From the NCBI GenBank assembly GCA_003550305.1, contig QKYT01000061.1:111384-175383 (forward strand): a DNA stretch of 64,000 nucleotides. The letters are read 5' to 3'. Both the position numbers and the translations under genes were made by a program. This DNA comes from Glomus cerebriforme. Its lineage: Eukaryota > Glomeromycota > Glomeromycetes > Glomerales > Glomeraceae. This document shows positions 1 through 62,411 of this stretch, one piece after another. Positions within the stretch are counted from its first letter, which is position 1. Every line of letters begins with the position of its first letter. The notes beneath the pieces are model-generated. The model searched no databases, had not been told where the DNA came from, and saw only the letters and a list, made by a program, of their open reading frames with translations.

Positions 1-700
1 GGAAGTTAATTTTAAATAAAGTTTATATTTAGTAGTTTAAATTTATTTTTTTTAAAACATCTCAAAATATTCTTATAATAATTAAAATATCTAAATATTT
101 CAAATAGTTTATATATAAAAGATAAAATTTGAAGTATTATTATAGGTAATTTTTTCTTGGAATTATGACACTTGGATCTTAATATAATAATACTAATATC
201 TATTTTTTATATATAAATACAAGTTTATAAGAAACTTTTTTTTAAAAAAAAACTATGTACATATATTTGGTCTCATGATTTCTTTTATATATATATATGT
301 TTTTATTTAATAATAATATAATTAAATATTTATATATGTACATATATGCAATGCAACCATTAGGATATTCAGGATGAAGCGGTCATACTTTTCTCATACT
401 TTTTGCTATATTTTTACATTTTTAATATGACTGTATTTTTTGGCAAGATTTTATACTTTTCATACTTTTTACAGTAAATCAGATATGATTGGTAATAGAT
501 CTTATATATTTGATTTATCAATCTTTTTTTTTTGATAAAATTGATTAGTGTTAATATATATTTATCTCAAAGTTTCACATATTGAGAAAATTATATTCTT
601 CAAGACAGTGTGTTGTGGTGTCACTTTTGTAATATAAAAGTTGACCATAAAGTAAAAATCTATTGTAGATAATTATTTTTTAACTTTAAAATATAAAAAT
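1..700. other. AT-rich non-coding stretch
   Basis: Extremely AT-rich sequence with poly-T/poly-A runs and TA-rich simple sequence near 280-350. I see no supportable gene. It leads into decayed hAT transposase sequence. Confidence 0.6.
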
Positions 701-7899: not shown

Positions 7900-8803
7900 C
7901 TAAGAAGAACCAGTAGCTAATTCCCACAAATGATTGGTCATGAAATACTGTGAATGTCTATCATCAATTACCACAGTATGAATGTCATTACCATCAGGGG
8001 ATTCTAATAAATTTTAAGAATTCAATGTTAAAATAATTATATTTTGATGTTAAATGATAAACAAAAATTATTTTTATTTTACCTATTCTTGCTTTTAATT
8101 CGTGAGTTGCCTCATTCTCAATAAATTGAATGCCCAATTTGCGATATAAATGAAGTTGAAGCCTTATTCATTATTATTATTATTTTTTGAAAAAAAGAAA
8201 AAAATTATTAAATTGAAAAATTCCGAAATTCTAATAAACAAATTATCACTCACGAAATATTATCATCTTTTGGTAATGTCTCATCTTCAACACTCATATT
8301 CTCTAATTCTTCTAATTCTTTACATAAAGAATCAGATTCCTCTTCAAGTTCCGTAAAATAAAAATTAAGAATTATATCATGAAAAGATTATAAAAAAAAC
8401 GGCATTCATAAACTAAGGATATTTTTCTTCCGTTTCTAATTGAGCGTTTAATTCATCCAATTCGAACTTCTCACGTTCATATTTTGCTATAAGATCATTA
8501 AAACTAGGTTCATTTTGATCAGTTGATTTCTTTGCACCGGCTTTGAGTGTTGTTAACTTTCTATTAAACACTAAAGAAAAAAAAACTAAGTAAAATAAAA
8601 AAAAAAAAAAAAAAAATCAAATATGTGAACTTAAAAAACTTACTCCTTAGTTCTTTTCTAAGCTCTTCACTTTTCTGGGTTGTAATTTCTTCAAACTTAC
8701 GAACATTCTCAGTAACTTCTTTGAAAACTTCTATTTGTTCGTCTGAATTAAATTTATTTTTCAACGCGATAATTTCACTAATAATGTCATATTGTTGTTC
8801 CAT
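7900..8803 (-). CDS. kinetochore protein Spc24-like, with an AT-AC intron
   Basis: Likely the Spc24 subunit of the Ndc80 complex, which links kinetochores to spindle microtubules. Five exons (8644-8803, 8423-8570, 8254-8352, 8083-8162, 7900-8003) give 196 residues, the usual Spc24 size. The N-terminal two thirds is heptad-like, charged coiled coil; the C-terminus carries the globular-domain pattern LYRKLGIQFIE and DGNDIHTVVIDDRHSQYF. Introns 1, 3 and 4 are GT-AG. Intron 2 (8353-8422, 70 nt) has no usable GT donor: it starts ATATCCTT and ends TTTTAC, with TTCTTAAT close to the 3' end, as expected for a minor-spliceosome AT-AC intron. Using it restores an unbroken coiled coil (EEKELEEES). An ATG 60 nt upstream is also in frame; 8803 was chosen because it starts the coiled coil. 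Confidence 0.82.
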
Positions 8804-36608: not shown

Positions 36609-38386
36609 ATGTCTGTTCCTTTTATGATAGAAGAAACAAACATGTCTTCAAATTCAACAAACGCAACAAACCTTCATAATTCGCAAGGTTTTGATGGATT
36701 GGTAACAATGCAGGTTTGTTGAGCTATTCGCCAAGGATGAAAATGAATTTTTTTTTTTTTAACTATTTTTTCTAATAAATAAATTATAGCCAGTGAATGA
36801 GCAGCTAATGCAACGTTCTTATGCTGCTGAATATCCTTTACAAGATAATCCTCATACTTTTTATGGGGGTATGCTAAATTGTCTTGGAGCATGTTTTGGA
36901 TTCATTGGTTCAGTAAGTAATATTATTCTTTGATCCGCAGTATTTTAAACATTATCCTGAAATTAATATTTATATTAAATAATTAAATAGATTCCTATTT
37001 GTCCATGTTTTCCCAATCCTTATAAAAGAGTTGAACAAGGCTATGTTGGATTGATTTCTCAATTTGGTAAAAACAATTCTTTTAATTATATTTATTAATA
37101 ACTAGATAATTAATATATTTAATATTAATTTTTTTAAAAAAAAAAATTAGGTAAATTTTATAAATATGTTGATCCCGGTTTGGTTAAAGTAAATGTATTC
37201 ACTGAAAATGTTACTCGAGTCGACGTTAAGGTAGTTTTTATTTTTTTTTTTGTTAACATATTAATTTCGACGATTCACTCGCGTTGATCATGTTTTTGAT
37301 TTAATGTTTGGATTAATAGATTCAAATTACAGAAATTCCACATCAGTATATAATGACAAAGGTAATATATCAAAATTTTTTGTTCATTTTAATTAAAGAT
37401 TAAAATAAATTGCTCTAATTATTCATAATTTAGGATAATGTATATGTTCAAATTTTTTCGGTTATCTATTGGCATGTAGTTGATCCTTATCAGGCAATGT
37501 TTGGTATCGCGGATGTTCGTAAAGCTCTTATCGAACGGTTAGTTATATTGATTTCGTACTTTCATTACTGAAATATTATTAAACCTTGCTAAATTTTTTT
37601 TTCAAATAAATAGTACACAAACTACGCTGCGCCACACTCTTGGTACACGTGTTCTTCAAGACTGTATCGAAAATCGGGAAGCAATTGCTTTTGAAATTAA
37701 AGAAATTATTGATGAACCTGCTAAAAATTGGGGTGTTAAAGTGAGTATTGGCAATAATTCTGGTTTTTTTTTTACTTATTAAGGAAAAAGTATATTTATT
37801 TTCCTTACCCATTAACTTTTATAAATATTTTTATAGGTTGAAAGTATCTTGATTAAAGATATTGTATTTTCTAAGGAATTACAAGAATCCCTTTCATCAG
37901 CTGCTCAGCAAAAGAGAATTGGTGAAAGTAAAGTTATTGCCGCACAAGCTGAAGGTACTTTATTATTATTATTATTATTTTACAGAATATTTTCTCCTAA
38001 TATTCTTTCTTTAATTATTTTTGTTCTTTTAATTAGTTGATGCTGCAAAATTGATGAGACAGGCTGCAGAACTTTTGAATTCACCAGCTGCTATGGTAAG
38101 TTCTTTATATAATGATATACGAATTTATATGTATTTTTTTTTTCTAAATTTAATTTGCCTTATCTTTTATTAGCAAATTCGATATCTTGAAACAATGTCA
38201 TCAATGTCAAAAGCTTCAGGAACCAAAGTTATTTTCATGCCATATAGCTCAACTGATGGAGGTATTCCAGGAGCTACATTTGGAACATCATCATCATATG
38301 GTGGCGATGCTTCTTCAAGCCATTCTAATAAAAAGATTGATCCTATTAAAGCTTCTGTTTATGAACAAATTGCCGATCAACATTAG
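36609..38386 (+). CDS. SPFH/stomatin-like membrane-associated protein
   Basis: Predicted scaffold of membrane microdomains (stomatin/prohibitin superfamily). Ten short exons (36609-36713, 36790-36912, 36991-37066, 37151-37230, 37320-37361, 37434-37537, 37614-37740, 37837-37954, 38037-38095, 38174-38386) join in frame into 348 residues. A Cys-rich membrane-proximal segment (CLGACFGFIGSIPICPCF) could insert as a hairpin or be palmitoylated. The SPFH domain follows: RVEQGYVGLISQFGKFY, DPGLVKVNVFTENVTRVD, the usual short exon ITEIPHQYIMTKD, LRHTLGTRVLQDCIENRE, GVKVESILIKDI. The C-terminus is Gly/Ser-rich. An ATG 33 nt downstream (MSSNST) is an alternative start. A TTA microsatellite sits in intron 8. 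Confidence 0.9.
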
Positions 38387-47433: not shown

Positions 47434-48179
47434 CTAATATTCAATAATTGATGCGGTGTCTTCAGTAATTTTCATATCATGCGTAAAAGAACTTTCTTCA
47501 CTAATTCCATCAGAATTGGTTTCATAATTTCTATCGCTGGAACCTTCACCATTGTCCATGAGTTCATCATCATAATCATAACCATTCATATGTTGATAGT
47601 GATAATATTCGGCAGTATTTCTACCATCTTCAACATAAATATCGCCTCCAGCTCCACTTTTATTTTGATATCTTGATTGAGGATAAATATATTGAGAATC
47701 CCAATTCCAGCACTGAGCTTGTTGTTGTTGTACTCCAATTAATTTTTCCATGTACTTAACATATAATTTATCTACCATTTCTTGATATGTTTTTCTTCTA
47801 CTTTGCCAATATCCTTGTGGTCCTCGACTTTTATCTTTTAATGTTGCTGAAGATTTTGAACTTAAGATAGTTTTTCTTCCTGATGTTAATTTCATTACAT
47901 CAAAACAAAATCCTACTGTCGTTTGAAACGTTGAAACAATTCCAATTACTACTAACAATGAATTCCATATGCAAAACCTATAAACAAAATTAAAAAACTT
48001 TTAACAACTTTTTTTTTTTTAAAAAAACAAAACTTCTTGGTTGAAAAACGAAAAAAAGTAAAGTACATCATTGATAACTGAACTGCAAAAGCCATCCAAC
48101 GGTTTACCGCAATCACTAAAAGCGTCACGATTGCGAATGACAATCGAACAAGTTTCATAATAGTACTAATAATAAACAT
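47434..48179 (-). CDS. membrane protein of unknown function with acidic C-terminal tail
   Basis: Two exons (48067-48179 and 47434-47977) join in frame into 218 residues. The N-terminal third is hydrophobic with two or three likely membrane spans (LSFAIVTLLVIAVNRWMAFA, then SLLVVIGIVSTFQTTVGFCF). The rest is soluble: a basic part (SRRKTYQEMVDKLYVKYMEK), a QQQQAQ run, then Tyr/Asp/Glu/Ser-rich low complexity to the end. The intron (GTACTT donor, TTTATAG acceptor) is supported by continuity of the hydrophobic segment. Layout suggests a fungal DUF-type plasma or vacuolar membrane protein, but I recognise no family. Confidence 0.65.
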
Positions 48180-55442: not shown

Positions 55443-56681
55443 TAGAGCTTCCGTTTGATATTCAAATTGAGATTCAAACGTTTGAAAAGATTTAAGGTAT
55501 GGATTCGAATATGATTCGAATCTCACATGACATTCGAATCTTAAATCCTAAAAATTCGAGTCGAAAATAAATAATTTTTTTTTCTTGTAGGCTTCTTGCG
55601 GTTCTTGCCTTTTTCCAAAATGGCAATTTTNNNNNNNNNNNNNNNNNNNNNNNNNNNNNNNNNNNNNNNNNNNNNNNNNNNNNNNNNNNNNNNNNNNNNN
55701 NNNNNNNNNNNNNNNNNNNNNNNNNNNNNNNNNNNNNNNNNNNNNNNNNNNNNNNNNNNNNNNNNNNNNNNNNNNNNNNNNNNNNNNNNNNNNNNNNNNN
55801 NNNNNNNNNNNNNNNNNNNNNNNNNNNNNNNNNNNNNNNNNNNNNNNNNNNNNNNNNNNNNNNNNNNNNNNNNNNNNNNNNNNNNNNNNNNNNNNNNNNN
55901 NNNNNNNNNNNNNNNNNNNNNNNNNNNNNNNNNNNNNNNNNNNNNNNNNNNNNNNNNNNNNNNNNNNNNNNNNNNNNNNNNNNNNNNNNNNNNNNNNNNN
56001 NNNNNNNNNNNNNNNNNNNNNNNNNNNNNNNNNNNNNNNNNNNNNNNNNNNNNNNNNNNNNNNNNNNNNNNNNNNNNNNNNNNNNNNNNNNNNNNNNNNN
56101 NNNNNNNNNNNNNNNNNNNNNNNNNNNNNNNNNNNNNNNNNNNNNNNNNNNNNNNNNNNNNNNNNNNNNNNNNNNNNNNNNNNNNNNNNNNNNNNNNNNN
56201 NNNNNNNNNNNNNNNNNNNNNNNNNNNNNNNNNNNNNNNNNNNNNNNNNNNNNNNNNNNNNNNNNNNNNNNNNNNCTTGATATATTTTTATTTCACTTTA
56301 CTTATTGTGATGTATAATAGTTAACGTTAAGCAAGAATGAATAATGTAATAAATGTATTTGTTGTATTATTTGTATTATAAAATAAAATAAATTCATTGA
56401 TAAATCATATTATTGTTCATCTTGTAGATAAAACTCTCCCAAATTAAACTCTGTTTCTTCCATTAAAAAAAAAAAAATTTGACAATGTATTTATTAAAAT
56501 CAATTTATAATTATTTTATCGAATCTAATAATTATATTTGAATCACATGGATACATTNGAATCATATGACATATTCGAATCATGTGACATATTCGAATTT
56601 TAAAATTTTATATTTGAATATCTAATGTTGTATGACTTATGAATGAACATTCGAATATATTAATTTCAAACAGAAGCACTA
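55443..56681. mobile_element. insertion A: hAT-like non-autonomous element
   Basis: Terminal repeats TAGAGCTTCCGTTTGA and (complement of right end) TAGTGCTTCTGTTTGA, which fit the hAT end pattern YARNG. A perfect 8-bp duplication AAGGAGAG sits at 55435-55442 and 56682-56689. Subterminal regions are full of ATTCGAAT-type short palindromes. The middle is unsequenced (645 N), so internal coding capacity is unknown. Confidence 0.8.
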
Positions 56682-60681: not shown

Positions 60682-61874
60682 CTATAGAATTAAAAAATAC
60701 AATTTATTAATTATCTTACTATCCAGTGATCATAAAAAGATAAAATATAGCTCATTTGATTCACCTCATTGAGACGTATCAAATGGTACTAATTTCCCAT
60801 TTCTAGGTGCGATAAATATCAAAATATTACATTTTTTATTTAGTTTTTTACGATTTATCAAATATCTCAACATCTATTACACCTAGAAATGTGAAATTAG
60901 TACCATTCGATACGTCTCAGTGAGGCGAATCGAATGAACTATATTTTATCATTTTATGATCACTGGATAGTGAGATAATTAATAAATTGTAGATATCTGT
61001 AAGATAGATCAGTTTTTGACTAGTGTTAATCTGCAATCTTTAATTAAAACAATTGAACATGATGATATTCTTGAGATTTGGAAGGTTTCCCAATATAATT
61101 ATCCTAAATGCTATCAATACGTAGTTTTACTTAACACTGGCAAGCATTTATGTACATGCTTTATGCTTGTCACTCATGGTATTATATGCCAGCACTTTTT
61201 TAAAGTATTTGTTGAATCTTTCAAAGCATGTTTTCATCTGAAGCTAATTTCTCGCCAGTAGTATAAAGATGAATATATTAGTTCAAGTGAGGGTGACTTT
61301 AACGAAATGGTTATAGGTAATCCCCAATTCTAACCATACATTAGAATTTACCCAAAAGTACATTATGAATGATATTTCAGATTATGACAGATAAATATCA
61401 CAAATCAACTGAAATATGATACTTTAACGGGCGAAGTGAAAAAAGCTATTCAATTCGCAATTCGGGATAGTGATGATGAACTAATTCAGTTTATAAGAGA
61501 TTTTAATAAAAGAAAGGAAGATCAATAAATTCAGGCTGAATTGATTAAACGGAAAGAAATATTAGCAAATAAGAGAATGAATGAGAATGATAATCAAGTT
61601 ATTCATAGAAGAGATGGAGTATTAGTTGATTCTAATAAAGTTTTAGATCCATTAAGACATCAATCAAAAGGAAGATCACTAGCAAAATGATTGAAGTTAT
61701 CTATCAAAACTGGAAGCAAGACAAGTTTAAAAAACAGAGATAACAGATAAGGGCAAACAAATAGCTGATGGGGTCGTAAATGTGGCATATGTGAGGAAAA
61801 TGGTCATTATTGCAATACTTATTCAAAGAATCAAGTAAATTGATTAATAAAAGCTTATAGTAAGTATAATGCAA

Positions 61875-61951
61875 ACCTAGTGCAGGAATCGAACCTGCGT
61901 TTTTATGATAAAAAAAAATATCTAGCATTCTGCCAACTGAACTAACTGAGC
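61875..61951 (-). repeat. tRNA-like unit 3
   Basis: Minus-strand unit: GCTCAGT start, D-arm GTTCAGTTGGCAGAAT, T-arm GCAGGTTCGATTCCTGC (five perfect stem pairs), end ACTAGGT. The middle contains nine T in a row. Confidence 0.7.
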
Positions 61952-62109
61952 AAATTTTAATATTATTAAACGATAGGTATTATAAATGCTTATTTTTAAG
62001 GTTCAAAAAACAATTAAAAAATTTAAATCCTGATTTTAACAAAAATCCTTGAGGATTTTTGTTGATACTACATGATATAAGAAACTCCAGAATTAATTAA
62101 AATTAAAAG

Positions 62110-62186
62110 GCCCAGTACAGGAATCGAACTCGCGTTTCTATGATAAAAAAAAATATCTAGCATTTTGCCAACTGAACTAACTGAGC
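62110..62186 (-). repeat. tRNA-like unit 4
   Basis: Minus-strand unit with start GCTCAGT and end ACTGGGC, whose seven acceptor positions all pair (one G-T). T-arm GCGAGTTCGATTCCTGT is slightly degraded. Confidence 0.7.
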
Positions 62187-62331
62187 AAATTTTAATGTTA
62201 CTAAATGATAGATGTTATAAACGCTTATTTTTTAAGATTCAAAGAATAATTAAAAAATTTAAATCCTGATTTTAACAAAAATTCTTGATACTACATAACA
62301 TAAGAAACTCTGAAATTAATTAAAATTAAAG

Positions 62332-62411
62332 GCCCAGTGTAGGAATTGAACTCACGTTTCTATGATAAAAAAATAAAATATTTAGTGTTCTACCAACTGA
62401 ACTAACTGAGC
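62332..62411 (-). repeat. tRNA-like unit 5
   Basis: Minus-strand unit, start GCTCAGT, end ACTGGGC with a full acceptor stem; T-arm GTGAGTTCAATTCCTAC is degraded. Closest to the outer right end of the MULE. Confidence 0.65.

Follow-up and report, generated by a model that had tools for sequence, protein, structure and literature searches.

The window analyzed here, a stretch of 64,000 nucleotides from Glomus cerebriforme, carries on its minus strand a five-exon gene (8803 to 7900) for a predicted Spc24, a subunit of the Ndc80 complex, and the second intron of this gene (8422-8353) is, with high confidence, a U12-type AT-AC spliceosomal intron in phase 2. The joined product is a protein of 196 aa. 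With the AT-AC join, the frame matched the Pfam family PF08286 (Spc24) at residues 84-191 with 85.9 bits against a curated cut-off of 25.3, and a match so far above the cut-off identifies the gene, at the level of predicted protein, as Spc24. A single Spc24 locus was found in this genome, with all five exon pieces present and in order. Searches of the PDB with the Spc24 protein and with a nine-row alignment returned four Spc24 chains at weak E values (0.029 to 0.36), which were presumably from yeast, along with a few unrelated proteins. The organization of the gene is given below, together with the residues of P0001, a protein from a relative, that were matched in the genome search.

8644..8803, minus strand: exon 1, 160 nt, ATG at 8803; P0001 residues 1-59 match
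8571..8643, minus strand: intron 1, GT-AG (GTAAGT...TTTCTTTAG), 73 nt, phase 1
8423..8570, minus strand: exon 2, 148 nt, 3′ end ...GAAGAAAA; P0001 residues 54-103 match
8353..8422, minus strand: intron 2, putative U12-type AT-AC, 70 nt, phase 2
8413..8422, minus strand: 5′ splice site ATATCCTTAG, the start of intron 2
8364..8372, minus strand: branch-site-like ATTCTTAAT, two mismatches to TTCCTTRAY, adenosine at 8365
8254..8352, minus strand: exon 3, 99 nt, starting GGAACTTGAAGAG; P0001 residues 103-138 match
8163..8253, minus strand: intron 3, GT-AG, 91 nt, phase 2
8083..8162, minus strand: exon 4, 80 nt; genome match to P0001
8004..8082, minus strand: intron 4, GT-AG, 79 nt, phase 1
7900..8003, minus strand: exon 5, stop TAG at 7902-7900; genome match to P0001

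The anatomy of intron 2 was in agreement with the sequence-only reading, which had described a 70-nt intron with a U12-type 5′ consensus, an AC end and a near-consensus branch site about 12 nt before that end. The exact octamer ATATCCTT is located at 8422, and the intron ends in TTTTAC. The U12 branch-site consensus is TTCCTTRAY, positioned some 10-15 nt upstream of the 3′ end. With its two mismatches ATTCTTAAT is weaker than this consensus, and its adenosine, which precedes the intron end by 12 nt, lies within the U12-type range; the best branch-like sites in the GT-AG introns 1, 3, and 4 showed three, five, and three mismatches, respectively. Left unspliced, the frame continues as ...EEKYP until a stop at the 5′ site. 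Removal of 8422-8353 gives a phase 2 join, ...EEKELEEESD..., in an open frame; the stop at the splice site and the fitting exon phases noted earlier were both reproduced. The marks of membership in the U12-type AT-AC class, i.e., the 5′ site, the branch site, the terminal AC with an exact codon join, and the snRNAs in the same genome, were all found.

The motif pair alone is within chance. In 300 first-order Markov simulations of 64 kb, scanned on both strands for ATATCCTT followed within 120 nt by a branch-like site and AC, the mean count of the pair was 0.86 per 64 kb, and 177 of the 300 simulations contained it at least once. The window contains six ATATCCTT octamers on both strands (5.4 simulated), the five others being as follows.

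36831, plus strand: ATATCCTT, octamer scan
47809, plus strand: ATATCCTT, octamer scan
17638, minus strand: ATATCCTT, octamer scan
14244, minus strand: ATATCCTT, octamer scan
4587, minus strand: ATATCCTT, octamer scan

The octamer at 36831 was rejected as a splice site and looks like a chance occurrence, being inside an apparent coding stretch read by eye as ...YAAEYPLQDN..., and those at 47809, 17638, and 14244 were rejected as antisense to long open frames. Elsewhere in the window, a run of N, either a gap in the assembly or a withheld stretch, was noted at about 55600-56290 (X in the open-frame listing), as were three clustered tRNA-like genes on the minus strand, ∼220-235 nt apart (61874-61951, 62109-62186, and 62331-62411), one called as Lys(TTT) and two with a two-base anticodon call. 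Since chance predicts about one such pair in a stretch of this size, significance drawn from the motifs only was rejected, and it is the proteins that carry the case. ATATCCTT had a per-position frequency of 4.7e-5, and 122 of 5,415 AC dinucleotides (2.3%) were preceded at 10-13 nt by a branch-like site; the joint chance at the junction is ∼1e-6, as the product of two frequencies that both include this site itself. The motifs are significant at the single junction demanded by the homologous proteins, and the case for the intron rests on position, because these proteins require one junction where the octamer and the branch-like site coincide.

One protein search yielded eight relatives and a profile search brought the number to 13 in all; the genera named among them are taken by us to be Glomeromycotina, Glomus cerebriforme having been checked. 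The exact junction, EEK followed by ELEEES, was found in two of the 13 (P0001 and P0003), aligned gaplessly with the predicted protein; both contain LEMEEKELEEESYSL without a break, as the AT-AC model predicts. P0001 is a protein of 196 aa from the source ‘lgn’, with five member sequences and one 2,436-nt contig. Its frame is uninterrupted despite the four introns of the gene described here, which suggests that it derives from spliced RNA. P0003 is the NCBI entry ‘kinetochore protein spc24’ of R. irregularis, and its C-terminal end differs. By our reading, among the known kinds of intron ends only 8422/8353 would give EEKELEEES; an intron shifted by a single base would give the same residues but require TA-CG ends. 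The PF08286 score, the U12-type anatomy, and the junction shared with two of the Glomeromycotina relatives uphold the proposal of an AT-AC U12-type intron in a fungal Spc24 gene.

In four of the 13 relatives, K-Y-P was found at this place: P0004 (Funneliformis) and P0005 (Acaulospora) contain it within a longer protein, and P0007 (R. irregularis) and P0008 (R. clarus) read EEKYP into the intron as short proteins that end soon after. This footprint looks like read-through of AAA TAT CC, i.e., of an unspliced 5′ site, and because of this fit the 5′ site seems to be kept in Rhizophagus, Funneliformis, and Acaulospora. Neither junction nor footprint was found in the remaining seven (P0002, P0006, and P0009-P0013), which are joined otherwise or are without the segment. 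It was also observed that entries P0004-P0013 of other Glomeromycotina disagree with one another around this junction. The Glomeromycotina Spc24 records diverge here as if gene callers expecting GT-AG had coped differently, which points to a recurring annotation fault. The short read-through proteins of R. irregularis and R. clarus are what a sequencing error, or a decayed gene without productive splicing, has in its favor; such an explanation is exceedingly improbable, given that the 5′-site footprint recurs in several species, that the single locus keeps its five exon pieces in order, and that P0002, the public Glomus cerebriforme Spc24, lies on a separate contig (317,542 vs. 259,730 bases) and is identical outside the disputed intron.

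It had been claimed that no GT-AG choice works and that every nearby GT donor leads to a stop. This did not hold: when single introns of at least 37 nt between 8570 and 8254 were counted, 25 GT-AG and 12 GC-AG combinations stayed open and in frame, and 55 AT-AG combinations were in frame. P0002 (C1645_816659, 175 aa) corresponds letter for letter to the gene in the window with one of these introns removed.

8342..8474, minus strand: rival GT-AG intron (GTGAGAAG...TTGAAG), 133 nt, in frame, used by the public P0002, cutting into the conserved EREK

That a major-type intron is used instead, either this one or another GT-AG or GC-AG intron, is nevertheless highly improbable. The rival intron is open, carries the donor GTGAGA, and pairs there with the standard U1 5′ end (−4.7 kcal/mol). 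However, it removes 21 coiled-coil residues that are kept in the relatives and cuts EREK (residues 85-88), which is nearly invariant among 11 aligned proteins (P0002 being outside that alignment and P0013 being without EREK). None of the 25 GT-AG combinations keeps both EREK and ELEEL. The GC-AG intron 8445..8340 keeps both at a cost of only 12 residues, but P0001 and P0003 retain every residue that the GT-AG and GC-AG models drop, these 12 included. The Pfam Spc24 score was likewise highest for the AT-AC join, two GT-AG models scoring 74.5 (8474..8342) and 70.8 bits. As its intron cuts into a conserved segment, the public Glomus cerebriforme model is probably a misannotation.

The genome (112.5 Mb, 1,117 contigs) was searched with covariance models for U11, U12, U4atac, and U6atac, as had been proposed along with the original reading, and all four exceeded the Rfam gathering scores: U12 with 70.8 bits, two copies of U11 with 77.0 and 69.2 bits, U6atac with 77.2 bits, and U4atac, narrowly, with 55.9 bits (2.9 over the gathering score of 53). 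When the snRNA loci were scanned with Rfam, they were assigned to these same families. None of these snRNAs was found in 14 control genomes, which is a weak control as these genomes are taken to be prokaryotes.

L001:1501-1663: U12, by covariance search and Rfam scan
L002:1501-1646, minus strand: U11, first copy, by covariance search and Rfam scan
L003:1501-1644, plus strand: U11, second copy, by covariance search and Rfam scan

The two U11 genes, reading UAAAAGGG and UACAAGGG, are not identical at the 5′ end, the part that base-pairs with the 5′ splice site. Computed duplexes with this intron gave −8.2 kcal/mol for the U11 5′ end, −5.4 for U6atac, and −4.9 for U12. In the region that pairs with the branch site, the U12 found here reads GUAAGGAU, its last base replacing the A of the Rfam consensus. 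The AT-AC intron has A as its first branch-site base, a possible partner for that U, and the computed duplex gains 1.3 kcal/mol over the one with the A variant. A shift of branch-site preference along with the U12 change is possible in such a model, and one intron proves nothing in this respect.

U2-type AT-AC introns, which are removed by the major spliceosome, exist in other organisms, and an intron of that kind would be uninformative on the minor spliceosome. The imperfect branch site could be read in this way, but ATATCCTT is a full U12-type 5′ site for which the standard U1 5′ end gave +1.4 kcal/mol (no pairing) vs. the −8.2 of this genome's own U11, the 12 nt between branch adenosine and intron end fit the U12 type, and the minor snRNAs are present in the genome. 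Removal of the AT-AC intron by the major spliceosome is accordingly given very little chance. We infer that the transcript is spliced at 8422/8353 in this species by the minor and not the major spliceosome. The order of the snRNA steps in minor splicing is established. Following this order, U11 would recognize ATATCCTT at the 5′ site, U12 would pair around the branch site ATTCTTAAT, bulging its adenosine, and U6atac would displace U11 from the 5′ site. The minor spliceosome would join ...GAAGAAAA to GGAACTT..., yielding the 196-aa protein.

A search for proteins of the minor spliceosome, which had likewise been suggested, was fruitful in part, with 48K-like and 65K-like loci but no 59K. The zf-U11-48K model matched the genome over its cut-off, with 36.1 bits; it also matched one of the 14 control genomes (Sulfolobus acidocaldarius), and the CHHC finger occurs in other proteins too. 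Ubiquitin_4, which we take to be the SNRNP25-type domain (25K-like), matched two adjoining pieces, likewise over the cut-off, with 50.9 and 30.1 bits. The locus L033 carries a 65K-like RRM in two exon pieces that were joined by eye, and the best solved match of the joined product was RBM40 (9.6e-15), presumably the same protein as RNPC3, followed by RBM41 (3.1e-13). With the 39-residue piece alone, designed TAR-binding proteins, RBM41, and U1A ranked above RBM40. L033 is likely to be 65K, RBM40 coming first only with the by-eye exon join. Another locus, L032, was rejected as 65K, its best solved matches being poly(A)-binding protein and other RRMs. PDCD7 (U11/U12-59K) gave no match in the genome in a search that matched nothing anywhere and hence had no positive control.

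Other U12-type candidates were sought throughout the genome with the strict pattern RTATCCTTT-28..58-TTCCTTAAY, and the reversed pattern served as the control. The strict motif pair was found at 18 other loci vs. none for the reversed pattern, two of the loci (L021 and L022) having the same letters. At 14 of the 18, the joined frame stayed open for at least 17 codons to either side of the junction, compared with 35.7% of 2,000 random sites, and at 11 of the 18 for at least 30 codons, compared with 11.7% of 2,000 random sites; these counts include L018, which is also open on read-through, and score L017, L021, and L022 as misses. The latter three had no acceptor within range, and L014 failed the frame test. 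Ten of the 14 joined products passing 17 codons were compared with Pfam, L015 having been trimmed at its start; six of the ten had a match, and in four the match spans the junction, namely, L010 (kinase), L016 (Tfb4), L023 (Nup85), and L013 (Nup133-like, with 24.3 bits barely over 23.7). At L010 (1501 onward), the candidate intron GTATCCTTT...TTCCTTAAT splits the protein kinase within SFVGTPYWMAPE.

The persistence of a minor spliceosome, which had been put forward from this intron, is in agreement with the minor snRNAs in the same genome. In this fungal group it is already published and not new, since for R. irregularis, a close relative with the same intron class and the same U11, U12, U4atac, and U6atac, the text of a 2023 report describes 205 minor introns together with many proteins of the minor spliceosome and all four of its snRNAs (PMC10639083). 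That report concerns a different species, and the present fungus is unnamed in the available part of its text. It was the only article returned by a literature search on the minor spliceosome in arbuscular mycorrhizal fungi, supplements being outside the search. The NCBI Spc24 protein of R. irregularis (P0003) already shows the same junction as the Glomus cerebriforme AT-AC model. Among early-diverging fungi, the same text ascribes a high minor-intron density to Basidiobolus and cites ∼4 U12-type introns in Rhizopus oryzae and ∼20 in Phycomyces blakesleeanus (PMC10639083), which also makes these two comparable to the present case. SPC24 is a minor-intron gene in mammals (PMC6865273, PMC8034651), a likeness at the level of the gene, and is counted among genes younger than LECA (PMC6865273). 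In the passages available, these two articles, both on mammalian SPC24, were the only ones that a search for SPC24 with minor introns or the minor spliceosome retrieved, supplements again lying outside the search. A word search found neither SPC24 nor Rhizophagus in the main text of PMC7367187. The Spc24 intron may already be included in a published table.

The intron is a clean AT-AC case in a gene central to cell division, in a mycorrhizal fungus whose genome also carries the complete minor snRNA set, and it extends the 2023 Rhizophagus report to another species. Mammalian SPC24 being a minor-intron gene as well, the Spc24 intron could be dated directly by comparing the positions. Conceivably, the fungal and the human minor introns are one and the same by ancestry and share codon and phase, although we lean somewhat against it. 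If true, the origin of the intron would go back at least as far as the last shared ancestor of animals and fungi, earlier than the mammal-only evidence indicates, and the intron would have been retained in a kinetochore gene of two kingdoms.
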